Virus record (IMG/VR): IMGVR_UViG_3300009436_000145
Location: 1 to 20,233 of that record
Length of the DNA stretch: 20,233 nucleotides
Strand: one strand, 5' to 3'
Origin: a virus
Positions within the stretch are counted from its first letter, which is position 1. Each line of letters begins with the position of its first letter. The position numbers and the translations under genes are program-made. The notes below the pieces were generated by a model. The model searched no databases. It worked only from the letters and a program-made list of their open reading frames with translations, and was not told the DNA's origin. Shown here piece by piece: positions 1 through 20,233 of this stretch.

Positions 1-80
1 ATTTCATGAAACTCATTCATTTGTAAGATATATTTATTAGAGAAGAACTATTAAACGTTATCAAGAAAGTGGAGTCATAA

Positions 81-100
81 TTCACCTGTTGCCAGGTGAA
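81..100. repeat. Perfect hairpin, possible weak terminator
   Basis: TTCACCTG and CAGGTGAA form a perfect 8-bp stem around a four-base loop (TTGC). A run of seven A residues (102-108) follows on the plus strand, so the T-run lies before the hairpin on the minus strand. Neither strand therefore shows the canonical stem followed by a U-tract. It may end leftward transcripts from the gp55 operon, or it may be a processing or stabilising element. Confidence 0.4.
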
Positions 101-140
101 TAAAAAAATGGATGTCATCAAGATGAGCATCGTCATTTAT

Positions 141-400
141 ATCTCGGGTGCTACTAGGAACCGGTGAGCCTTCTGTCCCCATACACTACCGTCACTGTCT
201 TTCGACCTCACGGAAATTTGTAAAACCTAGAATAATTTAGTTAAACAAATTTACAGGTTGCTTTTTCTCATTGCCTGTATCATTTTAAAGCCATAACGTT
301 GTTTGCTTCTTTACGACTACAGTCCAGTAATCTCGCACCGGGTGTTTCCATTGCCGGATTGTCAAGGACGACAGTTTTATAGGCCCTGTCGGGGCGGTGT
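141..400 (-). ncRNA. Candidate structured RNA of unknown family
   Basis: Two GC-rich blocks (about 141-213 and 310-400) stand out from the AT-rich surroundings. Potential helices, in plus coordinates, are 189-192 with 210-213 (closing a GTC/GAC stem), 214-221 with 245-252, 252-257 with 274-279, 311-318 with 321-330 (with a bulge), and 369-374 with 386-391. On the minus strand a long-range pairing is also possible between GAACTACA and TGTAGTC. The minus strand is preferred because the upstream operon is leftward, but the strand is not proven. A tmRNA-like string (TAGTC, then a nine-codon frame starting GCA AAC AAC at 306-280) is present. I could not find a tRNA-like acceptor end, a T-loop or CCA, so tmRNA is not supported. 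No known RNA family was recognised. Confidence 0.3.
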
Positions 401-480
401 AGTTCCTTATGTAAGGGTTCTGTAATTTGCCTGAATTCTGTTTTGACTTGGTGTCTGTGTGTGCCGTGTTCGATATATAG

Positions 481-906
481 TTATATCTTTTTAAGAGCTT
501 CACGAAGGATTTGTGAACCTCCTACTCTAACGTTTATTATACCATTATAATACTCGTCTGTCAAGAGAACTTTGCGATTAAATTGTTCTTCCGCTTCTAA
601 GTAACTTGCAACGCCTCTACTTGGGCATATGTGCAATATCTCTCTTGTAAATTTATCCTCTCCAAGCTCTAAAACATCTGCTTGAAGATTATCTGAACTG
701 CCCCAATAAGTTTTCCAATCGCTTTCTTTAGTTCCTCGGCGTTTGTTCTTTTTACCTTTTAATGGTGGCTTAGTTGTTTTAAATTTTGCTAACTTTTTGC
801 CTATGTACTTTTTGTCATTAGTTGTGTTTGTGATTAGGTATACGAATGCTTCGCAACCCTCAGGTAGCACATCTATTTTTTTGTTTTGGAAAGTCCATTG
901 CGACAT
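481..906 (-). CDS. GIY-YIG family endonuclease-like protein
   Basis: This 141-residue protein resembles a small GIY-YIG nuclease domain. The paired motif is visible as FVY (residues 21-23) and KKYIGKK (32-38). It is followed by a basic stretch (about 45-60), an Arg in FTREIL (R88), a Glu-rich helix SYLEAEEQF (E104 is the likely metal-binding Glu) and YYN (N121). These are the expected positions of the family's catalytic residues. Free-standing GIY-YIG proteins in T4-like phages include Seg homing endonucleases, but many marine phage members have no demonstrated activity. The gene is the last in the leftward gp55-gp47-gp46 operon, 9 bases after its upstream neighbour. No strong ribosome binding site is visible. 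Whether it is a homing enzyme, a repair nuclease or a host-DNA nuclease cannot be decided here. Confidence 0.7.
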   Translation of the reverse strand: MSQWTFQNKKIDVLPEGCEAFVYLITNTTNDKKYIGKKLAKFKTTKPPLKGKKNKRRGTKESDWKTYWGSSDNLQADVLELGEDKFTREILHICPSRGVASYLEAEEQFNRKVLLTDEYYNGIINVRVGGSQILREALKKI

Positions 907-915
907 AGTACATAG

Positions 916-1701
916 TTATCTACTGCCAATGCTATGTACGAACTTATATCGGCTAATCTTTTCTAAGTCAGGTTTTTGTGTAAGTTTACCTAACGCAATA
1001 TGTCCTATTGCTAACTTTGGGTCGTCGATTGGGTGTGGCAGTTTGTGTGCAACTTGCATACACCAACGCTTTACATGTTTTGTAACTGCTTTTGCATCAA
1101 CACACTGGTCTGGTGCAAACCATGCAAGTAAATCGCTTTTAACTATGCTAGTGGGAATTATATGTTCTTGTGGAACATCTACATCATTGTCGTAGCATAT
1201 TTCCATTATGTGTTTACCTACATGTGGGTAGTTCATGTACAAATGATTATCTAGTCTAGTAGGTGAGAACAATTCGTAATCACTGTCCTCTAGTGGTTGA
1301 GGTGCAGGCTCGCCAGTTGCTGTACTAATTAAGAAGCGTCTATTTTTATTGCCTGTTATATCTTCTAAATGATGTAAGTGATAGTTAAACATACTAAGCC
1401 ACTCTCGCAACTCTCCTGTCTCGGCGTGTACATGATCCGGAAAGTTTTCGTGTAGTCTATTTAGGTCATCACTGCCTGTGAATATTTCAGGCTTGATGCG
1501 TTGGATGTTGTCTATGCTGTGATTTAAGTTTGCCTGTACTTCTGCTATTGTTTCGCCCCAGTTATAGAACTGAGTACGACTCACAAACTCGTAATCGTTA
1601 TCTTTGTAATTGTTCCAAATTACTTCTGCAACACGGTTGTCAAATAGTTCGTATGTGAGAGTGTACTCTGCATCACGACCTAAGTGTATATCAATCCACA
1701 T
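916..1701 (-). CDS. Unrecognised protein in the recombination operon
   Basis: I do not recognise the function. The frame is open from 1746, but the ATG at 1701 is preferred. It gives a 261-residue protein starting MWIDIHLG, limits the overlap with the end of gp46 to 11 bases, and has a possible ACGGA ribosome binding site upstream. The 1746 start would add an unlikely leader inside gp46. The protein is acidic and rich in His, Trp and Tyr. Features seen include a helix-like segment with LNRLHENFPDHVH, then a Leu/His-rich stretch (SMFNYHLHHLED), a Pro-rich turn (TGEPAPQPLED) and a C-terminal segment with several Cys, His and Trp residues. No signal peptide or membrane segment is apparent. Its place between gp46 and a nuclease suggests DNA metabolism, but this rests on context only. 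Confidence 0.75.
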   Translation of the reverse strand: MWIDIHLGRDAEYTLTYELFDNRVAEVIWNNYKDNDYEFVSRTQFYNWGETIAEVQANLNHSIDNIQRIKPEIFTGSDDLNRLHENFPDHVHAETGELREWLSMFNYHLHHLEDITGNKNRRFLISTATGEPAPQPLEDSDYELFSPTRLDNHLYMNYPHVGKHIMEICYDNDVDVPQEHIIPTSIVKSDLLAWFAPDQCVDAKAVTKHVKRWCMQVAHKLPHPIDDPKLAIGHIALGKLTQKPDLEKISRYKFVHSIGSR

Positions 1702-3454
1702 ATTCCGTATCCGTATTATATGCAGTAAAGCCGCCTTCCTTGACAACTGTTAGTACATTATTAACACGACCTACGAGTTCTTCTTTGTGTGAAATAAGGA
1801 AAATATTTTTGCCTTGCTCTCTATTCATCTTCTTAAGGACGGCTAAGGCGTTCTCTACGCCCATTGTATCCATACCTGAGTCTATTAGTTCGTCTATGCA
1901 CATTAAGTTCATAGGTGCATTTAAGCTCTCATACATGTCTCTAAATGCCCAAGATAAGCCTAAAATAAGTCGATTGCGTTCGCCTCTACTTAGATTATCA
2001 AAGTCTAAGTCGCGTCCGTACTCTGTTATTTCGACATTTAAATCGTTCGCAAATTTTACATCATGCGGCAATCCTAACTTATCTAAGTACCATGCTAACC
2101 TATGATTTAAGTATGCAATGTTCTGATCAATAATCTTTTTACGGATAAAACTATCTTTGCTTGTTAACAGTTTATACAAGAACTCTTGGTGTTCTTTTAA
2201 ATGTGTAAGATCGTTAATTAGATCAAAACTAACTTCTTGTAAACCTGTTTCTCTAAGCAAGTCTATTTGATCAATGTACGGATTTGGTTCATCTAATTTA
2301 GTTTCGTATTGTGATGCTAACGACTCTAAATTATGTTTGTGTTCGTATGCCTCTTCGGCAGTTTTATAAAATGTAGTTAGTGTTGCAGGAACAATAATGT
2401 CTTCAAGTGATTCTGTGAGATCAGTTAGTTTACCTTCAGTAGTGGAAGTGTATTCTTTCTCTTCTACTATTTTGCCTTCTAACTCTTTAGTATACGATTC
2501 GTGTGTGCTTAAATGTGCTGTGCCTTGTTCACATGTAGGGCATACACCTTCTTGTGCTTTTACTAAATTAGCCTCTAACTCTATAAGCCTATCTTTACTA
2601 CGATTATAACTTGTTGTTAAACTTTTTAATTCTTTTGTAATAGTGTTAACTAGATCTTGTTGCTCTTTGGCCTCAACATTTTGTTTGAAAGATGCAATCT
2701 CAGTCTCAACATCAAGTTCGCCTAGTGTAGTAATTGCTGTTTCTAAATCTTTTACTTTAGTGTTATGTGTGGCATCCCATGCTTTTTTGCGACTTTCAAT
2801 TTCAGAAATGTTTTTTTCTATACGCTCGTTGCTGTCTTTAACTGCATTAATTCTTAATTCTTCTTCTTTAATGTTATCACGAGTAAACTTAGTTTTCTCT
2901 TTGAGCTGTTCTGCTTTAGCACTCAAATCAGTAATACCTAATAACTGTTCAATCATGTCTCGCTGATCGTTAGTTTTCATACTGAGGAAAGGTTCGCTAT
3001 ATGTGTTCAGTGCAACCAAATGTTTGAACATGTTATGAGGGAAGCCAATAATTTTTTCAATTGCTTTTTGTGTCTCTCTACTATCGCCTTGTTGTTCTTC
3101 TTTTACAGTATCTTCACCGTTAACTAAAAACTTTAACACATTAGGCCTGCGGCCACGCTCGATACGATAATCAATACCTTTAGACTCAAACTCTACTGTG
3201 GTCATCATGCCTTTGGCATTTGTTTTGTTAATTAAGTTATCACGGCGAATGTTAGTAAGTGCTTCACCATACAATGCATAACTTAATGCATTAATAATAG
3301 TAGTTTTACCTGTACCGTTTCTACTACCATCACCACCCATGTCTAGGTTGTGTCCTAGCACTAAGGTTAGTTGGCAGTTATCAAAGTTAACAGCCTGGGT
3401 ATTATTGCCCACACTCATAAAGTTACGGGCTGATACATTTTTAATCTTTAGCAT
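1691..3454 (-). CDS. 46: gp46 recombination endonuclease subunit (Rad50/SbcC-like ATPase)
   Basis: This is the ATPase partner of gp47. In T4 the gp46/gp47 complex resects DNA ends for recombination-dependent replication and helps degrade host DNA. The 587-residue protein shows every landmark of the family: Walker A (NGTGKT, residues 46-51), a Q-loop region near 150, long coiled-coil-like flanks (about 180-300 and 315-390), a zinc-hook CPTC (305-308), the ABC signature LSRGERNR (488-495), Walker B (LMCIDEL, 517-523) and the switch His in LISHKEE (553-559). T4 gp46 is 560 residues, so the length fits. The ATG lies one base after the gp47 stop, which implies translational coupling. Its 3' end overlaps the next gene. 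Confidence 0.96.
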   Translation of the reverse strand: MLKIKNVSARNFMSVGNNTQAVNFDNCQLTLVLGHNLDMGGDGSRNGTGKTTIINALSYALYGEALTNIRRDNLINKTNAKGMMTTVEFESKGIDYRIERGRRPNVLKFLVNGEDTVKEEQQGDSRETQKAIEKIIGFPHNMFKHLVALNTYSEPFLSMKTNDQRDMIEQLLGITDLSAKAEQLKEKTKFTRDNIKEEELRINAVKDSNERIEKNISEIESRKKAWDATHNTKVKDLETAITTLGELDVETEIASFKQNVEAKEQQDLVNTITKELKSLTTSYNRSKDRLIELEANLVKAQEGVCPTCEQGTAHLSTHESYTKELEGKIVEEKEYTSTTEGKLTDLTESLEDIIVPATLTTFYKTAEEAYEHKHNLESLASQYETKLDEPNPYIDQIDLLRETGLQEVSFDLINDLTHLKEHQEFLYKLLTSKDSFIRKKIIDQNIAYLNHRLAWYLDKLGLPHDVKFANDLNVEITEYGRDLDFDNLSRGERNRLILGLSWAFRDMYESLNAPMNLMCIDELIDSGMDTMGVENALAVLKKMNREQGKNIFLISHKEELVGRVNNVLTVVKEGGFTAYNTDTEYVD

Positions 3455-3455
3455 A

Positions 3456-4472
3456 TTAAATTTCTAACTCGTTATAAATGTCGATTAATTTTTGTCTTTC
3501 TATTGTGTTCGATTCAATTGTGTCTAATTGCTGTAGCACTATTTGATCCACACTTTCAAACTTTATTTCACTGCCTTCAAATTCCTGCTCTTCTTCTTTG
3601 ATAGGAATAAGTTGCAATTCTCTAACATTGTATTGTTCAGCCATCTTTTCTTTTATGAAAGTTGCTTCTTCATACGATATGTTAATATCTAATTTTACAC
3701 GAGCATAGGTGTACTTGTCAAGCAAATTCTCATGATTGTCTAATAACTGTTTAAGACTAAACACTCTGTACTTAGGACACTCAGTCCAGTTTACATATAT
3801 AGGCTCTTCTCCCCAAGTAAGGAACATAGCACCACGCTCATCGTCTTGTGCATCTGCATAGTTATGTGGGAAGGCATTACCTAAGTAATGTATGTTATTT
3901 TTAAATTGTCTTTTGTGAAAGTGACCACTAAACACTAGTTCTGGTCCACTAAGCATTTTATCATTAATGCCACCGTGGTCCGGCATCTCTACCATTGCGT
4001 TCATTTTAAAGTAAGGTAATTCAAAATGTCCGAACATGTACTTACACTTCATCTTAGAAACAGTTTTGTAATCGTCACCTACTAACCATGGAACAATAGC
4101 AACATCATCTTTTTCAAACATGTCGTCTACCATAACAAAGTTAGATAAGTCACGAGCAAATTCGATACTGTTCATATCTCTTTTGTCTCTGTAGTAGAGA
4201 TCGTGATTACCTGTTATGAAGTATACTGTTTCGAAGTTGTCGTTTAACTTTTTAAGATCTTGTACAGTTGCATTCATTGTTGCAACATTAATGCTTGATC
4301 TATGATGCATCCAATCGCCTAAGAAAATACATGTTTCTGCATTCCTTGCTTTTGCTTCTGCAATAAACCAATCTATATATCTAGCACAATCATCTAAGTG
4401 TAGACGACTATTTTGTTTTAGCCCGTAATGTATATCCGTAAAACAGGCCGCTGTTTTAAACAACTGACTCAT
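3456..4472 (-). CDS. 47: gp47 recombination endonuclease subunit (Mre11/SbcD-like)
   Basis: This is the metal-dependent nuclease of the gp46/gp47 end-resection complex. The calcineurin-like phosphoesterase motifs occur in order: DIHYG (residues 13-17), GDWMHHR (52-58), GNHD (88-91), GHFE (148-151) and SGHFHKRQ (182-189). Together they supply the Asp, His and Asn residues that hold two metal ions. The length of 338 residues is almost identical to T4 gp47 (339). The C-terminal third is Glu-rich and probably carries the capping and Rad50-binding region. The gene lies six bases after the gp55-like gene and one base before gp46. It should therefore be expressed from the consensus early promoter upstream of gp55. 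No key residue appears to be missing. Confidence 0.96.
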   Translation of the reverse strand: MSQLFKTAACFTDIHYGLKQNSRLHLDDCARYIDWFIAEAKARNAETCIFLGDWMHHRSSINVATMNATVQDLKKLNDNFETVYFITGNHDLYYRDKRDMNSIEFARDLSNFVMVDDMFEKDDVAIVPWLVGDDYKTVSKMKCKYMFGHFELPYFKMNAMVEMPDHGGINDKMLSGPELVFSGHFHKRQFKNNIHYLGNAFPHNYADAQDDERGAMFLTWGEEPIYVNWTECPKYRVFSLKQLLDNHENLLDKYTYARVKLDINISYEEATFIKEKMAEQYNVRELQLIPIKEEEQEFEGSEIKFESVDQIVLQQLDTIESNTIERQKLIDIYNELEI

Positions 4473-4478
4473 AAAAAA

Positions 4479-5354
4479 TTACTCTGGTGTATTTTCTTGT
4501 TCTGCCGCGGCTTCAGCTGAATCTCTTAAATTACGAATTTCTTCTTCATGTTTAATCTGTCTGCTGTAACTTGGCATATGTCCTTGATCGATTAGGATGT
4601 CATCTCTAATATTTTGATTGCGTTTCTCAATGTTTAATACTCTTGTGAAACTGTTATTCACAACTGCTGTATAGTAAGCAAACGGGTTATCCGACTTGGA
4701 CTCATTAAACTGTAGTCCAATTTGAGATAACTGAACTAATGCTTGTCCACGCATTTCGTCTACATAAGTATAACCACGCCAGTTTGCTCTGTGAGAATAC
4801 CTTTCAACAAGTTTTAAAAACATTGTACCTAATTTGTTTGTAATCCTTCCGTGGTCAACACTGAATGTACCATTGCTAATGCTACCTAACCAATGACTGC
4901 GAACAACCTCAACTAATTTGTTGCTTTGGTATGCGTAATGTTTAAATGCTGGAAAGTTTACTTTTGCTCTTTCGTCTGCTTCAGTTTTAGGATTTTTCTT
5001 TCTACCTGGCTCTAACGGTATGTGGTCCATGTTCATAACACGGAAAACTATTTCATCTAAATCAAAACTATCTGGATCTACCGCAAACTCTTTTTGCTTT
5101 GGCTTGTTTTTATAATCTGCTCTATCGTGTGTAGACATTGCTACAGCATACGCTTCGCTTTGCAGTTTGTTTGCTTTGTTTAATCTTGCTTGGTTAATTA
5201 CAGTATCGTTGATCTCGTTGAGGTCTCCTACTATAACATCATAATTATTATACTTTTCGTCGGATACTTGACAGTAAGTGAGTTTACTTGCGTTTATCTC
5301 TTTGAGAATGTCTTTGTTGTTTAAATAATTAACTGGTGCTGGTTTTTTTATCAT
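4479..5354 (-). CDS. 55: gp55-like sigma factor for late transcription
   Basis: In T4, gp55 replaces sigma70 on host RNA polymerase and recognises the TATAAATA late -10 box. In this 291-residue protein, residues about 170-250 carry the region-2-like pattern: a Leu/Arg-rich helix (FLKLVERYSHR), an Asp/Glu-Met-Arg helix (DEMRGQALVQL), then SDNPFAYYTAVVNNSF and a basic IEKRNQ segment. The tail is acidic. The protein is about 100 residues longer than T4 gp55 (185). The extra length is N-terminal (about residues 1-130), Lys/Asn/Asp-rich and unrecognised. The ATG at 5354 fits the upstream promoter and a possible AGGA site; an internal Met (107) would give a T4-sized protein. The gene heads the operon with gp47 and gp46. 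The two late-type promoters in this window are its likely targets. Confidence 0.88.
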   Translation of the reverse strand: MIKKPAPVNYLNNKDILKEINASKLTYCQVSDEKYNNYDVIVGDLNEINDTVINQARLNKANKLQSEAYAVAMSTHDRADYKNKPKQKEFAVDPDSFDLDEIVFRVMNMDHIPLEPGRKKNPKTEADERAKVNFPAFKHYAYQSNKLVEVVRSHWLGSISNGTFSVDHGRITNKLGTMFLKLVERYSHRANWRGYTYVDEMRGQALVQLSQIGLQFNESKSDNPFAYYTAVVNNSFTRVLNIEKRNQNIRDDILIDQGHMPSYSRQIKHEEEIRNLRDSAEAAAEQENTPE

Positions 5355-5368
5355 TTGTTGTTATATCC

Positions 5369-5377
5369 TATAGTTTT
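5369..5377 (-). promoter_or_regulatory. AAAACTATA word at the predicted gp55 transcript start
   Basis: The nine bases AAAACTATA read on the minus strand here, immediately after the -10 box of the gp55 early promoter. The same word lies at the same distance upstream of both late -10 boxes (5480-5488 and 12144-12152). I found no other copy when reading the window. A shared binding site is an inference; a nine-base AT-rich word can also recur by chance. Confidence 0.3.
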
Positions 5378-5383
5378 GTACAT

Positions 5384-5411
5384 ATTATACACTTATAATA
5401 TATTGTGTCAA
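5384..5411 (-). promoter_or_regulatory. Consensus sigma70-type early promoter for gp55-47-46
   Basis: On the minus strand TTGACA (5411-5406) is followed after exactly 16 bases by TATAAT (5389-5384). Both hexamers match the sigma70 consensus fully. Transcription should start near 5377 and leave a leader of about 23 bases, with AGGA ahead of the gp55 ATG. The strength and orientation fit a host-polymerase early promoter driving the whole leftward operon. Confidence 0.88.
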
Positions 5412-5457
5412 TCAGTTATATCCAATTCTGGCAATATTTTAAAGTTTAACTATGTAG

Positions 5458-5465
5458 TATTTATC
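5458..5465 (-). promoter_or_regulatory. Possible leftward late -10 box
   Basis: GATAAATA reads on the minus strand, identical to the two rightward late boxes. It would start a transcript about 100 bases before gp55. It lies beyond the centre of the shared AT-rich element on the other side, but 7 bases further away than in the two rightward promoters. It could allow late self-expression of gp55 or be a chance match in AT-rich DNA. Confidence 0.3.
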
Positions 5466-5467
5466 TG

Positions 5468-5508
5468 TGCCCAATCATTAAAACTATATTTTATGATTCC
5501 GATAAATA
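5468..5508 (+). promoter_or_regulatory. Late promoter with conserved upstream element (gp48 block)
   Basis: GATAAATA (5501-5508) is a T4-type late -10 box. By T4 spacing, transcription starts near 5514, giving a 13-base leader that contains AGGAG (5516-5520) before the gp48-like ATG. Upstream, TGCYCAMT (5468-5475) and CATTAAAACTATA (5476-5488) match the sequence ahead of the gp25 late promoter at exactly the same distance. AAACTATATTTT is an imperfect palindrome centred 14.5 bases before the box. Classical T4 late promoters have no such -35 region element. Confidence 0.82.
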
Positions 5509-5526
5509 GTAACATAGGAGATTATT

Positions 5527-6327
5527 ATGGCGAACAACAATAGTTCTAAAGGTTCTAGCTCACTGGGAGGATTATCCCAGGGTATAAGTGCCAAGGGATT
5601 CCTCAGGAACTTAGCAGAAGACCTGAACAACATTGCTGGCTTGACTACTACTGCTGGAGAGCAGGAAGGTATCACTACAAATGTAGATTGGCGAGCAAGA
5701 TTAAGGCCAAAAAACGGTGGACAAGATTTATTTTGGCGCGGAGCCGATGATTCAGCAAATGAAGGAACTGACTACTTAATGAAACCCTTGCACGAAGCAG
5801 GCGGACTGATTTGGCAGTACACACCGGATATTTTGGTCAGTGCTCAGGTAAACTATAACCAAACAGATTTCCATGGACAAAACTTTCCTGTAATGACTTA
5901 CAAGAATACAATACCACCTGCAATTCCTATAACAGCAGATTTTAGTGCTAACACAGTACCTGAAGCAAGGTATCTATTAGCAGTTATGCATTTTTGTAAA
6001 GTAGCAACTAAATCCTTTGGCGGAGATGCAGCAGTAGCAAGTGGCTTCTATGGTACTCCACCACCTGTGTTATTGTTTGAATACTTAGGTGCTCATGGCT
6101 TTAACAAGGTACCGGTTGTGCTAACATCATATAGTATGAACTTGCCAGCAGATGTAGACTATGTACCAGTAGCAACGGCTATCGCCGGCGGCGAAACAAC
6201 TTATGTGCCTACAATGTGTAACTTCCAGATTAACTTACAACCAACATATACTCCTCACAAATTGCGTAAGAGATTTGATCTACAACGATTTACTACAGGT
6301 AAAAATTATAAGGATGGGTTTGTATAA
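5527..6327 (+). CDS. 48: gp48-like baseplate/tail-tube junction protein
   Basis: This 266-residue protein is probably the equivalent of T4 gp48, which caps the baseplate hub and starts tail-tube assembly. After a low-complexity Ser/Asn/Gly N-terminus (residues 1-20), a central segment (about 105-150, with VNYNQTDF, PPAIPITADF and YLLAVMHFCK) and the pattern PPVLLFEYLGAHGF ... VPVVLTSYSMNLP (about 177-210) are typical of tail-tube-like baseplate proteins of T4-type phages. T4 gp48 is 364 residues, so this version is shorter. T4 gp54 is related in role and cannot be fully excluded. The start is fixed by a good AGGAG site six bases upstream. The gene opens the late block, and its stop overlaps the gp53 start as TAATG. 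Confidence 0.7.
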   Translation: MANNNSSKGSSSLGGLSQGISAKGFLRNLAEDLNNIAGLTTTAGEQEGITTNVDWRARLRPKNGGQDLFWRGADDSANEGTDYLMKPLHEAGGLIWQYTPDILVSAQVNYNQTDFHGQNFPVMTYKNTIPPAIPITADFSANTVPEARYLLAVMHFCKVATKSFGGDAAVASGFYGTPPPVLLFEYLGAHGFNKVPVVLTSYSMNLPADVDYVPVATAIAGGETTYVPTMCNFQINLQPTYTPHKLRKRFDLQRFTTGKNYKDGFV

Positions 6328-6626
6328 TGGCTAAATTTCATAGAAGCGATAGTTTTTTAAAATCAACCGGCGTGTATGACATATTTTTAGATGTAAGTAA
6401 ATTACCTTCGGTACCTAAACTACCATCAGACGACACATACATTATTGAAGCAAAATATGTTAATAGGCTAGACTTATTAGCATACGACAAATACGGTTCA
6501 TCAAGATTGTGGTGGATAATTGCTTTAAGAAACATAGACATAATTAAAGATCCAAGCAGAGATGTAACTGCAGGATTAGAAATTTACTTACCAAGTAAAA
6601 ACACAGCAGAAACAATAGCAGGCTAA
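6327..6626 (+). CDS. 53: gp53 baseplate wedge subunit
   Basis: gp53 joins neighbouring wedges of the T4 baseplate. This 99-residue protein carries the characteristic LysM-like segment LAYDKYGSSRLWWIIALRNI (about residues 51-70), followed by a C-terminal LEIYLPS strand typical of LysM-like wedge proteins. T4 gp53 is 196 residues, so only the LysM-like core with short flanks remains. The start overlaps the gp48-like stop by one base (TAATG), with AAGGA 12 bases upstream, suggesting coupled translation. The next gene starts one base after this stop. Confidence 0.85.
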   Translation: MAKFHRSDSFLKSTGVYDIFLDVSKLPSVPKLPSDDTYIIEAKYVNRLDLLAYDKYGSSRLWWIIALRNIDIIKDPSRDVTAGLEIYLPSKNTAETIAG

Positions 6627-6627
6627 T

Positions 6628-9090
6628 ATGGCACTACAATCGGCAGAACAGTACGATCCGTTTTTAAAGAAAAATGTTTATGGTAACATTTTAGATCAGG
6701 TCGATAACTATCAGTACAACTTAAAATTATATATGATACCACCAATTGCATCTCCTGTAGGAACACAGGCGTCTGCAAATAATCAAGGCGGCTCAGCAGA
6801 TGCTAGACTTGACAAACCAACCAATGCTAGTAACGCAAGTGGACAAGGCGGCTACTTACAAAACTCATATGTAGCAAGTCCGGCAGAAACAATTATACTT
6901 GCACAAACAGGCGTAACAGGAACACAGATTGACAACTTAGAAATAGAAACAGTTGTTGGTCCAGGTGGCGGCATGGAAAATGCAAAAGTAAATTTTGATA
7001 TAATTCAGCCTGGTGCAGCAGACTTCTTAGATCAGATAGTGGCTGCAAAAGCATATTTACGAGATCAAATTACAGCACAAGATGTTCCTATCTTTTTAGA
7101 AATAAATTTTAAAGGATATGACACAGATATCGACGACGAAGATGGCGGCGGCAATCCTATACTTGCAGCAGGTCCTTTCCGATACATGTTAAAAATTGCT
7201 AATGTGCAATTAGAAATTGACGATGCTGGTAGCACTTATCAGTTTAGTTGCGTACCAGTAGATCAAATGGCCTACATTGATACTAGTTTTAGAATGCCAA
7301 AGAAAATTGAATCAATTGGCACAACTATAGAAGAACATGTCACTGACATGATAGCAAAAATTAGAGAGCATAACGAAACTAATAATAACATGTATGCTAT
7401 ACAAGACGAGATTTTAATTGACTTATCTGGATTAACAGAAGGCGACTATGCATTAAAAGACACTAAACTAACTAAGCCAGACGATACACAGGCAGAAGAA
7501 ATAAACAGGATAATGAACCCTGAGTTAGAAGGTAAAACAGAAGACGAATACGAAGACATATTAAGAGAAAATTCTAAAGACGAAGGCACACTAGACATAG
7601 TAGTAGCAGAAAATAAAGTAACAGTTAGGGAAGGTGTATCCTTTGAGAGATACATAGCAACATTGCTTTCTATGAACGATGAATTTTTTAATAGATGTAC
7701 TAGATCAGTTTACCCAGCAGACCCTGAGAAAAACGAAACAAGAAAAGATCAAGCAACTATACAGTGGTTTAAATTAAATGCTTATGTTCAATATATAGCA
7801 TTTGATTATAAAAGAAATGCGTATGCATTAAAAACAGTTTTCAAACCAACAATTTATTCAACAGCAAAAAATACTGTACAAGCAGATGTAGCAGAAAATT
7901 CAGGACTTACTAGCGATGATGTAAGAGCAAGAGTTAATGGTTTACCTATATTCAAATCATATCATTATCTATACACTGGATTAAATGATCAAATTAAACA
8001 ATGTAGGATAGAATACAAATCAGGTATTGCAATTTTAACAGCACCGGCCGGCGGCTTCTCAGGTGATTTTAGTACAGTGTTAGCAAAAACTCTTAGCACT
8101 TCAGCAACGCCAACAGAAGATTTAACAGGTAACGATTTAGCAACGGCGGCTGTAAAAGCATCTAATGAAGAAGATGCAAACAAAGCATTAGATAATTTGT
8201 TTAAAGATAAAAGTCCTGAAAGAGAAAAGGACATTGCAAGTGTAGGAGGATTATTAGGATTCTCAAAAGCAGAAATCAAAGATGCTGTTGAAAATAGAAA
8301 AGGTGCAAATGCACAAAGAATAAAAGACACTCTAGCAAACAAAGGTGCAGCAGAATCAATTAGGAAGGCACAGATTGCAAATGCATCAGGCACAGCAAAC
8401 CCAAAAAATTTAGACGGAACAAATTATACCCCGTCGCTTAGTGGCTATACTTATTCTGCAGATATTATAGGAAGTGTAAGCGAACGATTAGAACAAGCCT
8501 CAGCACTGTCGGCAACACAACAACTAGCAGAATCCTTAAAGCCAAAAGAAGAAGAAGATGCTAATGCTGATGCTAGTGGGCCACAGGAAGCAGTTAAAGT
8601 GGATTCAGTACCTAACCCTGCAGAAGATGCAACTTATAATGGTACTCCAAGAAACACAGTGTTTGGATATTTAATGCAACAACATGCAATCGACGATTTC
8701 CTTGTAACACTAGATATGGAAATTAAAGGAGACCCTTGGTGGCTAGGTCCTCCAAAAGGAGACAATCAGCCAGAAGTAAAAGGAAGTGAATTTGTTAAAG
8801 AAAAAACAGACGAGAACTCAATGAAAACACAAGGTGATGAAAACTATGTGTTATTTGATTTACAAACACCTAGATTGTTTGACTTTGATGTTGAAGACGA
8901 AGACAGTGACAGTAACAGTGGTTACTGGAGTAAAATGGGTACATCATATTTCTTAACAGGCGTGTACATGGTCAGAGGAGTTAACCATATGTTCTCAGGT
9001 GGAGAATTTTCGCAAGAGCTTAACTTAATAAGACAAACAGCAATAGATTTAAAGAAGATAGAAAAAGATCCAACTGGAGGTAATGCGTAA
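6628..9090 (+). CDS. Large baseplate hub-like virion protein
   Basis: This is an 820-residue protein without a confident T4 name. The N-terminal part (about 12-40) has DNYQYNLKLYMIPP. Residues about 185-215 (RYMLKIANVQLEIDDAG then YQFSCVPVDQ) look like a beta-rich hub or tube domain. The middle (about 480-660) is Ala/Asn/Lys/Glu-rich and probably flexible. The C-terminal part has GDPWWLG (about 701-707) and GVYMVRGVNHMFSGGEF (about 778-795). These resemble hub-protein signatures (gp27 or gpD-like) in contractile tails: a G-N/D-P-x-WLG turn followed by a V-x-H-x-F-x-x-G-x-F strand pair. Its position directly before gp5, with a TAATG overlap, supports a hub role, because gp27 binds gp5 in T4. 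The hub assignment is inference. Confidence 0.6.
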   Translation: MALQSAEQYDPFLKKNVYGNILDQVDNYQYNLKLYMIPPIASPVGTQASANNQGGSADARLDKPTNASNASGQGGYLQNSYVASPAETIILAQTGVTGTQIDNLEIETVVGPGGGMENAKVNFDIIQPGAADFLDQIVAAKAYLRDQITAQDVPIFLEINFKGYDTDIDDEDGGGNPILAAGPFRYMLKIANVQLEIDDAGSTYQFSCVPVDQMAYIDTSFRMPKKIESIGTTIEEHVTDMIAKIREHNETNNNMYAIQDEILIDLSGLTEGDYALKDTKLTKPDDTQAEEINRIMNPELEGKTEDEYEDILRENSKDEGTLDIVVAENKVTVREGVSFERYIATLLSMNDEFFNRCTRSVYPADPEKNETRKDQATIQWFKLNAYVQYIAFDYKRNAYALKTVFKPTIYSTAKNTVQADVAENSGLTSDDVRARVNGLPIFKSYHYLYTGLNDQIKQCRIEYKSGIAILTAPAGGFSGDFSTVLAKTLSTSATPTEDLTGNDLATAAVKASNEEDANKALDNLFKDKSPEREKDIASVGGLLGFSKAEIKDAVENRKGANAQRIKDTLANKGAAESIRKAQIANASGTANPKNLDGTNYTPSLSGYTYSADIIGSVSERLEQASALSATQQLAESLKPKEEEDANADASGPQEAVKVDSVPNPAEDATYNGTPRNTVFGYLMQQHAIDDFLVTLDMEIKGDPWWLGPPKGDNQPEVKGSEFVKEKTDENSMKTQGDENYVLFDLQTPRLFDFDVEDEDSDSNSGYWSKMGTSYFLTGVYMVRGVNHMFSGGEFSQELNLIRQTAIDLKKIEKDPTGGNA

Positions 9091-11519
9091 TGGGTATTAG
9101 TTCTAGCAGAGATACAGCAAGTAAAAAGAATCCTGTAATTAAAAAGAATATCAGTAAAGATGCTGTATTTGGTATATACCTTGCAGAAATAGTTTCAACA
9201 AAGGATATTAGCAGAACTGGTAGAGTGCGTGTGTTTATTCCAGCAATAAGCAAAGACAAAAATTCACCAGCTGGGTATTTTGATGCAGTATGGACAAGTC
9301 CGTTTGCAGGAGGCACAGATCCTCGAACAGTAGGACAAGATGTACAAAAGCCACAAGATACTATGAGCAGTTATGGTTTATGGACTACAGTTCCTGACAA
9401 TGGTAACTTAGTCCTTATAGCATTTGGTGACGGTAATACAAAATATCCTATGGTAATGAGTTGTTTGTTTCCTGACAGATTAAATTATATGCTTCCTGGT
9501 AATGCAGGTGGTAAAACATATCAAGCCGCAGGTTTAAATTTACCCACACTAGAAAAAAATAAAAGAACAGCAGATATCAATCACAATGATACATTTAGGC
9601 CTATACAAAATACATTAGCATCAGCAATAGTTAAACAAGGATTAGCACACGATCCAATAAGAGGTGCAGGTTCATCAAGTGCTAGAAGAGAATCACCCAG
9701 TGAAGTATTTGGTTTATTAACACCTGGGCCTAGAGACCCAAACAACTTTAATTATAGACTCGGTGGACACAGTATCACATTAGATGATAACTTAAACTCG
9801 AGACAAATTAGAATACGATCAGCACAAGGTAATCAACTATTATTAGACGATACTAGCGGAATGGTATACTTAATTAATAAAGAAGGTAATGTGTGGATGG
9901 AGTTTGCATCTTCTGGACAAGTGTTTATGTATGCAGAAAACGATATCAACATGCGAACAAAACGAAATTTCAATTTACGAGCAGACTTCGATGTTAATAT
10001 TGAAGCAGGGCAAAATGTAAATATTAAAGCAGCCAAAGATAATGACGGCGGCGAATATATAGGCGATGGTGCAGCAGAAGCAGGTGGCCAAATTAATCTA
10101 CAATCACAACAAGATACGAATATTTTAGCAAATGACAATTTGTTTGTAACAGCAACAACAGGTGAATTACATGTTAATGCAGCCGGCTCTATTAAAAACA
10201 CAACTGGCGATAGCATAAAAAATAGTGCAACAAGTGATATAGTTAATTCAGCTGACGGCAAAGTTACAACCAAGTCCGGTGGTGTGCAAGTTTTAGAAGC
10301 AGGTGGTAATATTATTGAGAAAGCACCTAAGGTATTAATGAACAGCGGAGGTCCTGGTGCAGAAGCTGCAGAAGCTGCAGATACAGCAACGCCAATTCCT
10401 ACAGATACATTTGACGACAATCCTATTGAACAACCTACATACGACGATGAAGGCAAACAAAATATCACAAACGGTATGCGTCAAGGCAACACCGCAGTCA
10501 TTTCAACTATTGTTACAACAATGGTTACCTCAGAGCCATTCATAGGACATGGACTTCCTAACCCAGAAAAAGACGATCAAGCAAACATGGTGCCAGACGA
10601 ATCCATATCTCAAGGATTAGGACCTAGCAGTAACGGAGTTGGTGGTAGTGGTCCTGCAGATGTTAATACTCCGGCTGGATTACAAACAGGCTATGCTGCT
10701 CCTGATGGTACACCTAAGTATACTAGCCCAGCCAATGTACAGAATAATTTTGCTCAGGCACAATCTAAAAAACTTGAAACTAAAAATATAGCAGGTTTAG
10801 CAGGTTCGTTGGCTTCTAGCATACCGCCTATAAGGCAACCAATGACTACTCCAAGCGGTTCAAAGAAAGCAGGAATACTTGGCGAACTAACTGCTACACA
10901 GAATAAGATGAAAATGTTAGCATTCGACAATAAAGGAATGCCAGCAGATTTAATGGGCGGAAGTGCTAAGTCTATGACTAATACAATTGCTACTATTAAG
11001 TCAGGAGGCCCCGGCACAGATGTAGCAGGTGCATTAGCAAGTCAAGGTATTCAAACAATCAAAGATGGACCATCTACTATCTATATGAAGAATGGTGTAA
11101 AAATAGTTGATATGCAAAACGGCATAGGCCCAGTAGGAACTCAAATGCATGCCACTAGTGAATTAGCAGGAACTGCAGAAGTAGTAAAAGGTTTGTGTGG
11201 AACAACACAACTTAGTGATAACCAACTGCTTTCTCTTTCAAGTTTTGCAAATCACACCGGCACTAATGCTTTTGCAAAAAGTAAAGTACTTGGTGCAGTT
11301 AAGAATGGGCAGGGTGATAAAGTGCCTAATTTAATGATGGCTCACAGCACACTAAAAGTTGGTGGAGTACCAACTATGCAAGGGGACTATTATCAAAGAC
11401 GGCAATTCGAAGGCGAACTGTTCCAAACTCCAGATAGCATATCAGTGAAAACTTATTCAGGCTTAGTGCCGTTTGGCAAACAAGCCAGTGACTTAAAACA
11501 AGCCAGAAGATCCGGCTAA
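9090..11519 (+). CDS. 5: gp5 baseplate hub / central spike protein
   Basis: In T4, gp5 forms the membrane-piercing spike. Here residues about 25-130 form an OB-fold-like head (GIYLAEIV, GRVRVFIP, GLWTTVPDNGNLVLIAFGDG). Residues about 226-420 hold regular short beta repeats (GHSITLDD, IRIRSAQGNQLLLDD, INMRTKRNFNLRADFDVNIE and so on), which suit a triple-stranded beta-helix. A conserved-looking MVTSEPFIGHG (478-488) follows. The T4 lysozyme domain between head and helix is absent. The C-terminal segment (708-778) resembles the second half of GH24 phage lysozymes: LSSFANHTGTNAFAKS and then YYQRRQFEGELF. No E-8-D-5-T catalytic pattern is visible before it. The gene has a strong GGAGG site (9076-9080). 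Its stop overlaps the convergent small gene by three bases. Confidence 0.85.
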   Translation: MGISSSRDTASKKNPVIKKNISKDAVFGIYLAEIVSTKDISRTGRVRVFIPAISKDKNSPAGYFDAVWTSPFAGGTDPRTVGQDVQKPQDTMSSYGLWTTVPDNGNLVLIAFGDGNTKYPMVMSCLFPDRLNYMLPGNAGGKTYQAAGLNLPTLEKNKRTADINHNDTFRPIQNTLASAIVKQGLAHDPIRGAGSSSARRESPSEVFGLLTPGPRDPNNFNYRLGGHSITLDDNLNSRQIRIRSAQGNQLLLDDTSGMVYLINKEGNVWMEFASSGQVFMYAENDINMRTKRNFNLRADFDVNIEAGQNVNIKAAKDNDGGEYIGDGAAEAGGQINLQSQQDTNILANDNLFVTATTGELHVNAAGSIKNTTGDSIKNSATSDIVNSADGKVTTKSGGVQVLEAGGNIIEKAPKVLMNSGGPGAEAAEAADTATPIPTDTFDDNPIEQPTYDDEGKQNITNGMRQGNTAVISTIVTTMVTSEPFIGHGLPNPEKDDQANMVPDESISQGLGPSSNGVGGSGPADVNTPAGLQTGYAAPDGTPKYTSPANVQNNFAQAQSKKLETKNIAGLAGSLASSIPPIRQPMTTPSGSKKAGILGELTATQNKMKMLAFDNKGMPADLMGGSAKSMTNTIATIKSGGPGTDVAGALASQGIQTIKDGPSTIYMKNGVKIVDMQNGIGPVGTQMHATSELAGTAEVVKGLCGTTQLSDNQLLSLSSFANHTGTNAFAKSKVLGAVKNGQGDKVPNLMMAHSTLKVGGVPTMQGDYYQRRQFEGELFQTPDSISVKTYSGLVPFGKQASDLKQARRSG
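10359..10380 (+). repeat. Short tandem repeat inside gp5
   Basis: GCAGAAGCT repeats about two and a half times and encodes an Ala-Glu-Ala-Ala-Glu-Ala-Ala linker just after the beta-helix part of gp5. It is probably a flexible or helical linker that can vary in length by slippage. Confidence 0.6.
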
Positions 11520-11695
11520 GTTAAACTGTTAAGTTCTTTTACTTCTGCTAATTTTTTCCAAGCCTTATATTTTGCTTCAGATTCCTCTCTCACCATTTTT
11601 TCTAATAATGAAATAGTACCTGCTTGACTTATGATAGTTTGGTTTTGATCATGAATGATCTGGTTAGCGGAAGATAGACCGTCTTTAGTGTCCAA
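11516..11695 (-). CDS. Small coiled-coil-like protein, TTG start
   Basis: The frame is open from an ATG at 11740, but that start lies inside the terminator hairpin and has no usable ribosome binding site. A TTG at 11695 has GGAGA seven bases upstream, just past the terminator, and gives about 59 residues. The product is rich in Glu, Lys, Gln, Ile and Leu. It has a heptad-like run (IIHDQNQTIISQAGTISLLE) and a charged helix (REESEAKYKAWKKLAEVKE), suggesting a small coiled coil. It lies convergent to gp5, with stop codons overlapping by three bases. It is either expressed by read-through of the terminator or from an unseen promoter. I do not recognise it. Confidence 0.45.
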   Translation of the reverse strand: MDTKDGLSSANQIIHDQNQTIISQAGTISLLEKMVREESEAKYKAWKKLAEVKELNSLT

Positions 11696-11709
11696 TTGTT
11701 TCTCCAGAT

Positions 11710-11746
11710 AAAAAAAATATGTGTGTAGTCTCCTACACACATATTT
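11710..11746 (-). terminator. Strong leftward intrinsic terminator
   Basis: A perfect 14-bp stem (11715-11728 with 11733-11746) closes a four-base loop that reads GAGA on the minus strand. A run of eight T residues (11717-11710) follows on that strand. It starts 15 bases after the stop of the 84-codon gene. On the plus strand only a short TTTAGT follows, so it should act mainly on leftward transcripts. Confidence 0.9.
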
Positions 11747-11761
11747 AGTACTACTTTACTG

Positions 11762-12016
11762 TTAACCGGCTTTTTGAACCATTTTTTCCATCACTCTAAA
11801 TTCATCTGGTTTGATGTTTTTATCGTAACGATAATTGCCAGCAAAGTTTACCGTATCAAACAGTGCATACCGTTTAGATACTGAGTCATATAGACCGACT
11901 GTAACAAACCGCTTAGACTGCTGAAAAATGCGATGGAAACGCTGCCCATTGCTCCTTTCGTTAATCTTAACTGCTTTAGACCACAGTTGGTCAAACTCGC
12001 GATTCAGTTTAAACAT
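11762..12016 (-). CDS. Small early protein of unknown function
   Basis: This 84-residue basic protein (MFKLNREFDQLWSK...) is unrecognised. It has a helical, charged N-terminal half (WSKAVKINERSNGQRFHRIF), a beta-like centre (KRFVTVGLYDSVSKRYALFDT) and a charged C-terminus (KPDEFRVMEKMVQK). No membrane segment or signal peptide is visible. An AAGG ribosome binding site lies about nine bases before the ATG. It has its own consensus early promoter, a leader of about 75 bases with two hairpins, and a strong terminator. It is therefore a complete, self-contained leftward unit set between late rightward baseplate genes. By analogy with other small early phage proteins it may modify host functions, but this is inference only. 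Confidence 0.75.
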   Translation of the reverse strand: MFKLNREFDQLWSKAVKINERSNGQRFHRIFQQSKRFVTVGLYDSVSKRYALFDTVNFAGNYRYDKNIKPDEFRVMEKMVQKAG

Positions 12017-12049
12017 TTCTGTCTACCTTGTTCGCTTGGTGGATGATAT

Positions 12050-12064
12050 GCTCTAAGTTAGAGC
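12050..12064 (-). promoter_or_regulatory. Leader hairpin 2 (or operator palindrome)
   Basis: GCTCTAA and TTAGAGC are perfect seven-base inverted arms around one base. In RNA they would form a hairpin with a loop of about five bases in the leader of the 84-codon gene, 33 bases before its ATG. As DNA the palindrome could equally be an operator. Confidence 0.55.
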
Positions 12065-12070
12065 TGTTTC

Positions 12071-12089
12071 TGTAACATAAACTGTTACA
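12071..12089 (-). promoter_or_regulatory. Leader hairpin 1 at the 5' end of the transcript
   Basis: TGTAACA and TGTTACA are perfect seven-base inverted arms with a five-base loop. They begin within about two bases of the predicted transcript start (near 12091), so the mRNA would start with a hairpin. Such 5'-terminal stems often protect mRNA from decay. An operator just downstream of the promoter is the alternative. Confidence 0.6.
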
Positions 12090-12097
12090 TTACATAC

Positions 12098-12125
12098 ATT
12101 ATAGCACCTTTTGTTATCGTGTCAA
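12098..12125 (-). promoter_or_regulatory. Consensus sigma70-type early promoter for the small gene
   Basis: On the minus strand TTGACA (12125-12120) and TATAAT (12103-12098) are separated by exactly 16 bases, as in the gp55 promoter. Both hexamers are fully consensus. The -35 box lies only six bases from the start of the shared element of the divergent gp25 late promoter, so proteins bound at the two could interfere with each other. Confidence 0.88.
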
Positions 12126-12131
12126 CCTTTT

Positions 12132-12172
12132 TGCTCACTCATTAAAACTATAGTTTAAGAAGTAGATAAATA
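12132..12172 (+). promoter_or_regulatory. Late promoter with conserved upstream element (gp25 block)
   Basis: GATAAATA (12165-12172) is a late -10 box. CATTAAAACTATA (12140-12152) and the flanking TGCTCACT (12132-12139) match the gp48 late promoter at identical spacing. Here the element is close to a full palindrome, TTAAAACTATAGTTTAA, centred 14.5 bases before the box. By T4 spacing, +1 falls at 12178, which is the A of the gp25 ATG, so the mRNA may be leaderless. Confidence 0.82.
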
Positions 12173-12177
12173 AGAGT

Positions 12178-12546
12178 ATGGCTACAATATTCAGAGGATT
12201 CAGCACAGTAGATAAAGTTAAGGCCCCATTTTCTATATCGGACATGGACTTAGTGAAACGAGATCTGCTGAACGAGTTCAATACTCGCAAAGGTGAAAGA
12301 GTTATGCGTCCTAACTTTGGTTGCATAGTGTGGGATTTATTAATGAATCCACAGGATACTTTTACAGACTCTGATATTAAAGATGATATTACACGAATTA
12401 TTGAAAAAGATTCTAGGGTTGAGTTACTTAATATTTCACTGTTCACAAGTGGCCATTCAGTGAGAGCCGAAGTAGAATTGAGGTATGTTATACTAAACAG
12501 CGAAGACACCCTATTCTTAGAATTTAAAAACGAACAGCAGGTATAA
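12178..12546 (+). CDS. 25: gp25 baseplate wedge subunit
   Basis: gp25 is a conserved sheath-initiating wedge component that links the inner baseplate to the sheath. The 122-residue protein is close to T4 gp25 (132). The N-terminus (MATIFRGFSTVD) and the core GERVMRPNFGCIVWDLLMNP (residues about 39-58) are typical of the family. The C-terminal beta strands (VRAEVELRYVILNSED) also fit. The start is supported by the conserved N-terminus, although the late -10 box ends only five bases before it and no ribosome binding site fits in between. gp6 follows after three bases, as expected, since gp25 and gp6 contact each other in the wedge. Confidence 0.93.
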   Translation: MATIFRGFSTVDKVKAPFSISDMDLVKRDLLNEFNTRKGERVMRPNFGCIVWDLLMNPQDTFTDSDIKDDITRIIEKDSRVELLNISLFTSGHSVRAEVELRYVILNSEDTLFLEFKNEQQV

Positions 12547-12549
12547 TAC

Positions 12550-16752: not shown

Positions 16753-16760
16753 AGGAAAAT

Positions 16761-19700: not shown

Positions 19701-20233
19701 GACACAGTAAGACCTCATACACATCCTTGGGAAATGTTAGGCTTCATAGAAGAACCAACATATTGGTTAACACAATACGGCACTAACTTTACTAAGTCAA
19801 ACGAAGCAATGTGGAAAGACTTAGAGCAAGGTATTATTCGTTCAGGCACAAGAGAAAATTTTGTTTCAGGAGAGTATTTAATAGACAACCCATGGAGAAG
19901 AGTTGGACTATTAAATTTATTGCCAGTTGACTTTACTAGTGCGTTACTAACACCAGGACAAATTACTAATACTGGAAGTACATCAAAAGTTGAAACATGG
20001 ACAAATGCTCGTCCTAGCAGTACTTTAATAAGTGATGCATTTATTGATGTCTCCGGCACAAACAGTCAGCCTAATGGCATTAACATAACTTACGGGTCAA
20101 CAGATGCATTAAGAGTTTTGTTTGATGCGTTCGATATTGGCAATGTTAATGTTAAAGCCCAAGCAGGAACATTTTGGGATTACTCCCCTGCAACTGCTGT
20201 AACAGTATCAGATGCATACCCAACAGGGTTTGC
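16761..20233 (+). CDS. Large Trp-rich virion structural protein, 3' end missing
   Basis: An open frame starts at ATG 16761 (MSDKKIVNQLPVVLQ), with AAGGA four bases upstream and eight bases after the gp6 stop. I read it in frame without a stop to the window end: at least 1157 codons. Landmarks are RYRSFVPPIDIDKFVNYQEY (about 114-133), IVQQRGAVNKNAWSRVNHWY (about 233-252) and RPHTHPWEMLGFIEEPTYW (about 985-1003). Such aromatic-rich giant proteins are found as virion structural proteins next to gp6 in marine T4-like phages. By position it replaces T4 gp7 (1032 residues), the wedge initiator, but I see no clear gp7 motif. A wedge or baseplate-periphery role is inference. Confidence 0.8.
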   Translation, partial: MSDKKIVNQLPVVLQTKAIKNFFEATVEQLYSEANTVPLAGFIGKKTGDDKGLTGAFINENNADRRQYNLSPAVNNINPVTGDSENLIFYDEFIDTLKVYGVNTSNHNKLFGSRYRSFVPPIDIDKFVNYQEYFWHPAGIGVIPITSTESAPINLDEDVLGKKSFTVGNTTLRNGMTVNFTDNSYTIPANTSAQRVKAGVDYIVEGVGESIKLVEKSITDSTEYGGAVESKDYIVQQRGAVNKNAWSRVNHWYHRDNFTDAGDQFPMREYRATRPILEFNNDLELFNQGTTSYGEATVNVTGIFKTDIETLTSKTIDTRELLNGDILLFSNESADIKKYLYTVSGIGTGIMLTPTSSTPIAVDQTVTIAEGNVFKGIDYLYNGTDYVRAQRKIKTNQAPLFELYDDAGNILSHSGLYNNSDFAGSPIFGYKEGTGAKDIELGFPLTYTPYKSASEITFENFIHTGRTTYMPFGTNTTKTIFGTYYYKLLKETPEYHSAWKQSPARNEQKIITTHYITQLVVDDKTLIFNIGATPDVLSSTPSGYDILVKVNGAIVSDYVYSATTNIKFNTFTFKAGDVIDIEVGSDSGISKITDSRYEIPLSWKANPFNNEIEFVAEPDYMSHFKRYIERQDGFTGNALGENNFSNTSKDTAHAKDIVQTDQDLIVAAFALDDQPHNLVDALRFTGREYEKYRARLIKEINSYYNRFDTTNLSKEYILEQVLRSLISFSIGKDIFGTTYILPFGDNYLKQEFDVADINSTIYTLDNYADLDEITNSLLVYHVDAATGVQNILTVEQDYAISSVNPITLTIHKALSLGDTIISKLYDKDRDSAECPPTPSTMGLYTLCQPRVATDFSFKTPQDLLIGHDCSKTVLNGDIRDDVLLEFEIRLYNSAAQQFRTTDSVPALSVGNIRSGAFRTTNQAPREYADLLRNSFTNWTKVSGVDYSTNEFYDTTETTTWNYRGDQDLPGHWRGWFEYYYDTVRPHTHPWEMLGFIEEPTYWLTQYGTNFTKSNEAMWKDLEQGIIRSGTRENFVSGEYLIDNPWRRVGLLNLLPVDFTSALLTPGQITNTGSTSKVETWTNARPSSTLISDAFIDVSGTNSQPNGINITYGSTDALRVLFDAFDIGNVNVKAQAGTFWDYSPATAVTVSDAYPTGF

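Follow-up and report, generated by a model that had tools for sequence, protein, structure and literature searches.

In phage T4, a late promoter is an 8-bp box with no sequence conservation at -35; gp33 occupies the sigma-4 site and reads no sequence, and activation is provided by the sliding clamp gp45 (available part of PMC2988020). The locus described here raises the question of whether late promoters of the T4 type can also carry a second, sequence-specific element upstream of the box and, if so, which genes it serves and what reads it. A sequence-only reading of the window (the whole analysed stretch of 20,233 nt) had proposed such an element for the late promoters of this phage, and its premise that T4 late promoters are a lone box agrees with the source cited above.

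The protein matches of the window are those of a T4-related contractile-tail phage. When its region 5300-12400 was compared by blastn with 50,697 named phage records, nothing matched. The features concerned are listed in Table 1. Homologues of SbcD and then SbcC come after the gp55 gene on the leftward side. A 140-aa protein encoded at 481-906, and at 114765-115187 of a related 250-kb contig (G015), appears GIY-YIG-like by eye and matches phrog_447 (annotated as NAD synthetase) and homing endonuclease families, with matches in 167 loci and pieces of the lineage, overlapping ones counted.

Table 1. Promoter elements and neighboring genes in the window.
Feature	Position	Strand	Remarks	Family match
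gp55-type late sigma factor	4479..5354	-	291 aa, with ~140 extra N-terminal residues	phrog_12791, 3.1e-93
Late promoter box GATAAATA	5458..5465	-	Faces the gp55 gene; shares the 5477-5494 repeat at gap 11	
Inverted repeat ATTAAAACTATATTTTAT	5477..5494		6 nt upstream of the rightward box, 11 nt from the leftward box	
Late promoter box GATAAATA	5501..5508	+	Rightward baseplate operon	
First gene of rightward baseplate operon	5527..6327	+	Virion structural protein; called gp48 in the sequence-only reading	phrog_12050, 1.9e-42
Baseplate wedge subunit	6327..6626	+	Same operon as the 5527 gene	phrog_7145, 4.3e-20
Baseplate hub subunit and tail lysozyme (gp5-like)	9090..11519	+	Same operon	phrog_13211, 3.1e-38
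Inverted repeat ATTAAAACTATAGTTTAA	12141..12158		6 nt upstream of the gp25 late box	
gp25 late promoter box GATAAATA	12165..12172	+	13 nt from box start to start codon	
gp25 baseplate wedge protein	12178..12546	+		PF04965, 3e-12

Taken by itself, the box is no commoner in the window than chance predicts (4.96 RATAAATA expected, 4 found). The 13-mer CATTAAAACTATA has just two exact copies there (5476-5488 and 12140-12152), each starting exactly 25 nt before a plus-strand GATAAATA, so the spacing proposed for the two rightward late blocks was confirmed for both copies. Rather than the 13-mer as such, it is an 18-bp inverted repeat that is conserved, at -24 to -7 counted from where the box begins, with the consensus ATTAAAAC-N2-GTTTTAAT, of which CATTAAAACTATA is the left part. 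Further matches had also been noted in the eight flanking bases (TGCYCAMT); their letters are indeed present at 5468 and 12132, but the ortholog consensuses of the two promoters have no flank in common. The flank was therefore not accepted into the element and most likely represents lineage noise.

The symmetry of the unit was also seen when complementary pairs were counted without any matrix. At the offset of the 5477-5494 repeat, 6.37 of 9 pairs were found (30 thinned orthologs, median over offsets 2.73), and at that of the 12141-12158 repeat 6.57 (28 thinned orthologs, median 2.79). The count peaks at -24 for the tape measure promoters as well (5.62) and at -21 for the hub (5.10), with medians over offsets of 2.5 to 2.8. 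No clear peak was obtained for the portal (highest value 3.25) or for the phrog_11259 protein (highest value 4.25, at -31; 8 sequences).

Conservation was assessed in 98 related IMG/VR loci together with the window. Some contigs stand under two identifiers in the per-ortholog counts (L008/L089, L013/L092, and L080 with G014); such duplicates are reduced by clustering in the matrix test, which dropped sites within 60 nt of contig ends, and by thinning in the dyad counts. The GATAAATA boxes lie mostly between genes, with 140 distinct boxes in ~82 kb of intergenic sequence against 55 in ~1.37 Mb called coding, and many of these 55 resemble, by consensus, gp25 promoters inside over-extended reading frames. 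The matrix was trained on 12 gp25-like promoters, so that gp25 hits are not independent of it. Among the other GATAAATA cluster representatives, 57 of 127 had a best hit above 8 bits (40 at -24, 8 at -21 and 4 at -29), whereas the same matrix gave 2 hits in reversed upstream sequence and a mean of 2.3 in shuffles. The pairing of box and repeat is not due to chance.

The position of the repeat is nearly invariant for a given gene. It lies at -24, i.e., 6 nt upstream of GATAAATA, in 75 of 78 promoters of the first baseplate gene, in 66 of 69 gp25 promoters (one more at -25) and in 40 of 42 tape-measure-like promoters (again one at -25). On the gp55 side it is at -29 in all ten loci with GATAAATA there, this being the other side of the shared repeat, while promoters of the phrog_11259 protein have it at -23 to -27 in 7/10. 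Hub promoters carry it at -21 (gap 3), in 13/41 by the matrix and 21/41 by the dyad count, the other 20 being without a dyad of 6 pairs at that position. In the tail tube promoter of G015, repeat and box are 17 nt apart, and in the close relatives of this promoter (L452-L479, the first 28 of 80 fetched) the best match stands at exactly gap 17 in 28/28, 25 of them with a score S of 8 or more and three weak (3.2-3.7 bits); this gap is kept although the 17 nt themselves differ. Among 52 less close tube loci (L480-L531), 27 have a NATAAATA box upstream and none of these 27 has the repeat within 24 nt of it; 24 of the remaining loci have no box and one is too short. A gene for a 100-aa protein in G015 (L421:9101-9403) also carries the repeat, at gap 10, and S reaches 8 or more in 8 of 80 relatives, at gaps of 0, 10 and 11 and, in one, 8 or 12.

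Spacing is therefore fixed per gene and differs between genes (gap 6, 3 or 17), a variation that speaks against a rigid -35 contact of the sigma type. A partner element at fixed distance, absent from classical late promoters, stands as had been proposed, but not a distance common to all genes. A sigma70-type -35/-10 pair, with its hexamer fixed 16-18 nt from the -10, does not describe the arrangement, as the repeat is shifted by 3 nt at the hub and by 11 nt at the tube. Neither does a sigma28-type promoter (TAAA-N15-GCCGATAA): the left TAAA is at sigma28 distance only in gap-6 promoters, the GCC is not conserved and other genes have other gaps. A terminator or RNA hairpin was likewise rejected as improbable, the repeat lying upstream of the expected start and having no T run.

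Many late promoters lack the repeat. No hit was found in 33 of 34 portal promoters (the other has one at -20), and the repeat was absent from 31 of 32 promoters in downstream-ortholog groups 7-14 (one at -29) and from 7/7 singletons; these groups include a UDP-glucose dehydrogenase and proteins that look fiber-like by eye and have no family match. In G015, the repeat is found at 6 of 45 GATAAATA promoters, that of the tail tube gene included, and the gene before the tube gene (sheath, by reading of its sequence) has a box without the repeat. The sequence-only reading had itself named absence upstream of other late genes of the phage as the observation that would refute it, and as a general late -35 element the repeat was accordingly rejected. 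By position it instead appears to mark a tail and baseplate sub-regulon.

Specificity was examined with a symmetric matrix in 16 contigs (1.19 Mb; G014 was fetched for 20,000 of 45,981 bases, G001 for 80,000 of 80,414, G012 for 40,000 of 40,994 and G013 for 40,000 of 40,431). At S of 11 or more, 56 matches were obtained (8 in reversed sequence), 38 of them noncoding, and 35 of these 38 have GATAAATA at a gap of at most 19 nt, as against 938 of 15,783 random noncoding positions. The gaps of all 40 box-linked matches, noncoding or not, are 6 (31 matches), 5 (3), 3 (3), 11 (2) and 7, 10 and 17 (one each). S was 8 or more at 56 of 167 GATAAATA promoters, and at 1/167 with the upstream sequence reversed. 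Among all NATAAATA promoters of named phages there was no match in T4 (0/37, in line with its lone box), Syn9 (0/24), KVP40 (0/25; 220,000 of 244,834 bases) or CBB (0/47), and a single one each in PA5oct (1/59, at -20), Vibrio 2.275.O (1/53, at -39) and Atu_ph07 (1/58, at -40; 390,380 of 490,380 bases). The repeat is thus real, conserved and largely lineage-specific, and the late promoters that carry it, a subset of all, belong mostly to tail and baseplate operons.

Among the named phages, Phosso, a Sinorhizobium phage (49% GC) on which no publication was found, has the element at one promoter. In the 400,000 of its 469,473 bases scanned, one of 44 NATAAATA promoters matches, at exactly -24: ATTAAAGCTGTTGTTTAT precedes CATAAATA by 6 nt, upstream of an operon that diverges from gp55 and begins with a gene annotated as an adenylyltransferase. 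In the 400 kb, two hits with S of at least 9 fall between genes or near an ATAAATA, and this site is one of them; Phosso gp25 has a degenerate form of the repeat (4.4 bits). The corresponding promoter divergent from gp55 gives weak matches in Atu_ph07 (ATTAAATTAGTAGTTAAT-6-ACTAAATA, S 8.05) and in RaK2 (ACAAAAAATAGTTTTTAT-5-TATAAATA, S 8.4; L107 5860-6020), the latter being the single RaK2 promoter looked at, and scores of 3.0-3.7 in PA5oct, CBB and Vibrio 2.275.O. With the RaK2 match, the element may turn out to have a wider range, or to have had one in the past.

The phage encodes a sigma factor of the gp55 family. Its closest relatives are jumbo-phage gp55 proteins (46.9% for Phosso, 45-46% for the Pseudomonas PA5oct group and 44.6% for CBB), and residues 140-245 match T4 gp55 in PDB 7d7c (E 0.00045), residues 1-139 lying outside the match. 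The C-terminal half of the structural model, which is of low confidence (mean pLDDT 61, the N-terminal part left uninterpreted), aligns with sigma domain 2 structures and with T4 gp55, the Z-scores of at most 8 being middling; the best Foldseek row is T4 gp55 (prob 0.99, E 0.068). By eye, the C-terminus, in T4 the clamp-binding end, is variable and hydrophilic here in the alignment.

It could be supposed that the late polymerase itself reads the repeat, with the N-terminal extension of gp55 or an unrecognized gp33-like partner as a substitute for sigma region 4. In favor of this, residues 1-139 of the 291-aa gp55 lie outside the match to T4 gp55, its gene adjoins a site, and the left-half TTAAAA of gap-6 promoters has its end 17 nt ahead of the box, where a -35 element would normally stand. 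However, alignments with gp55 of PA5oct, CBB and RaK2 cover 92-93% of the length and take in the extension, and neither PA5oct nor CBB has a match at the conserved offset. The extension was therefore rejected as a sufficient cause, and the second DNA contact of gp55 put forward as an alternative in the sequence-only reading did not find support. Shifts of the size seen at the hub and tube would hardly be tolerated by a rigid -35 contact, and most GATAAATA promoters of the same genome do without the repeat. Reading by the polymerase is on the whole improbable.

The T4-type clamp family PF02916 was found in none of 8 records (6 jumbo phages and 2 contigs; T4 gave 2.9e-35) and PF02767 in none of 9, where the contigs are perhaps partial and the clamps perhaps diverged. 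The six jumbo phages without PF02916 (NC_042013, NC_071039, PV764938, NC_041878, MG592671 and NC_019526) each have a gp55 match. No clamp was detected in PA5oct, CBB or Vibrio 2.275.O, and these phages have no match at the conserved offset either, so a phage with no detected clamp does not have to carry the element in its place, and the link between missing clamp and element is suggestive only.

The symmetry of the repeat points to a dimer. We consider it about evenly balanced whether the repeat is the operator of a putative dimeric, sequence-specific regulator, which would form a second layer of control on the gp55-type late promoters of some operons only (tail tube, tape measure, baseplate hub and baseplate wedge). 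If GATAAATA has the T4 position (-13 to -6), the repeat of the main promoters would cover about -37 to -20, with its center at about -28, which is presumably near the position of MotA at T4 middle promoters. The dimer would hold the gp55-RNA polymerase on the promoter, so that a fixed DNA site would do the work of the T4 sliding clamp, which needs none. The two-part architecture, its conservation, the spacing per gene and the restriction to a mostly tail and baseplate subset of late promoters are direct observations, from which we infer the dimer, the transcript start, activation over repression and the regulator protein itself.

An activator at about -28 is more likely than a repressor. The strict spacing per gene, and gaps of 6 and 17 that differ by 11 nt or about one helical turn, favor contact with the polymerase and hence activation, and the inverted repeat emerged without the matrix in four operons, three times at -24 and once at -21. 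Genes bearing it are the baseplate operon, gp25, tape measure, hub and tube. The gaps of 0, 10 and 11 at the 100-aa protein gene and gp55 are about half a turn away and might have another effect, such as feedback, while a gap of 3, as at the hub, agrees with neither phase. Counting against activation, one member of the set, the 100-aa protein, is not known as a tail protein, and the varied gaps (0, 3, 6, 10, 11, 17) would also fit a repressor operator, at which blocking of the polymerase would hold the tail and baseplate promoters (and gp55) in check until late or switch them off. Gaps of 5 and 7 add to this variation, the gp55 promoter shares a site at gap 11 as would fit feedback, and dyads that overlap a promoter are typical repressor sites. 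Steric repression, however, would need neither a spacing nearly invariant across diverged relatives nor gaps one turn apart, and a repressor could equally sit on or downstream of the box, whereas the noncoding sites, scored for a box reading away from them, lie upstream of one in 35 of 38 cases. We regard repression as rather unlikely. A sequence-specific late activator, as the sequence-only reading had suggested, remains the best reading for the tail sub-regulon but not for late genes at large, and no such protein was found. Somewhat doubtful, though conceivable, is the fuller scheme in which the late genes are split and the tail tube, tape-measure and baseplate regulon would be read by the gp55-polymerase only with a dedicated dimeric activator at about -28, replacing the clamp site-specifically, perhaps with feedback on gp55 through the shared site.

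In the search for the binding protein, 137 of the 153 G015 proteins listed with lengths of 55-300 aa and genes beyond the structural block were scanned against Pfam (E 0.01), and no helix-turn-helix family was among those listed; two batches gave the best 25 of 51 and the best 25 of 27 families, and 49 of the 50 proteins of the former were rescanned with full lists. The small proteins of G015 gave single hits to WYL_2, SWIM zinc finger and, weakly, C2H2 zinc finger. The 100-aa protein was not upheld as the binder and is kept as a weak lead: its model is of good quality (pLDDT 88), with no PDB match under E 1 and two viral models at E 0.001 or less, both uncharacterized, and its family hits are weak, the best in Pfam being SspH (E 0.0028, in 19 of 52 members). 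Its family is common in IMG/VR (at least 80 relatives), and among the matches listed a NATAAATA box stands within 150 nt upstream in 68 of 80. The binder could also be a host protein, a new fold or gp55 itself.

A host regulator exploited by the phage would account for the lack of a helix-turn-helix family among those listed for the scanned proteins. The core TTAA-N8-TTAA resembles the CtrA site, TTAA-N7-TTAA, but its spacing is N8 rather than N7, and the noncoding matches are nearly all beside a late box. A comparable use of host sites by cyanophages has been suggested for NtcA and Pho boxes (available part of PMC3037559). For the present repeat we hold a host regulator to be quite improbable.

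Compared with known systems, the arrangement appears to be a variant of the T4-type late promoter with a second element, whose mode of action we infer. It shares with T4 the ATAAATA box, NATAAATA upstream of virion genes and a gp55 homologue in the same genome, and differs in the upstream inverted repeat at tail genes (-24 to -7 from the box, where T4 has no conserved -35 sequence), in a box whose first base is mostly G and in that no T4-type clamp was found in the records scanned. T4 middle promoters are also phage promoters with an extra site near -30, but here a late box takes the place of the sigma70 -10 and the site is an 18-bp inverted repeat, while the MotA box is short, non-symmetric and centered near -30, with a consensus not resembling the repeat. 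The I-TevI operator is likewise a site for a DNA-binding protein overlying a T4 late promoter, but at a single autoregulated gene rather than a set of tail operons.

The Aeh1 late promoter has the variant box CTAAATA, and the available part of its description mentions no upstream partner element (PMC1524935). Its box type, ACTAAATA, is seen at tail promoters in Atu_ph07 (L102, the operon beside gp55) and at the Phosso hub gene (L443, near 233000). CBB and GAP32, jumbo phages with the same broad type of gp55, have a predicted late promoter ATAAATA (35 places in CBB), for which the available part of the report describes only the box and downstream A/T (PMC5259590), and CBB boxes are without the repeat. 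No upstream element of gp55-type late promoters was described in the available parts of the open-licence literature (PMC2988020, PMC5259590, PMC5931967, PMC3037559, PMC5780444, PMC1524935, PMC7824862), and a prior description may exist elsewhere.

A different composite was noted at portal promoters (G006 49130, L134; G007 6117-6124, L136; and others), which read TTGACA, 6 nt, GATAAATA, GTGTAATAT. Their consensus over 28 thinned orthologs resembles a sigma70-like promoter interleaved with the late box, with TTGACA and no dyad in the -35 region. In a cyanophage psbA motif, a sigma70 -10 and a gp55 site coincide (available part of PMC5931967). The psbA family PF00124 was found in none of 18 contigs. 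G015 encodes an alternative oxidase (2467-3036, in L412, G015 1-20000), and the scanned proteins of L412-L414 include one that is plastocyanin/azurin-like and a cytochrome c.

T4 late transcription is the standard example of promoters without an upstream element that are activated by a moving clamp. If the proposed reading is true, gp55 systems can also use a fixed DNA site, by which tail assembly could be timed or dosed apart from heads and fibers. The known sites and exact spacings allow direct tests, perhaps in Phosso, for which a host is listed and where one promoter is built in this way. For this group of little-known large aquatic phages, the extra mirror-image site suggests a DNA-binding protein that would control the tail assembly genes separately from the other late genes.
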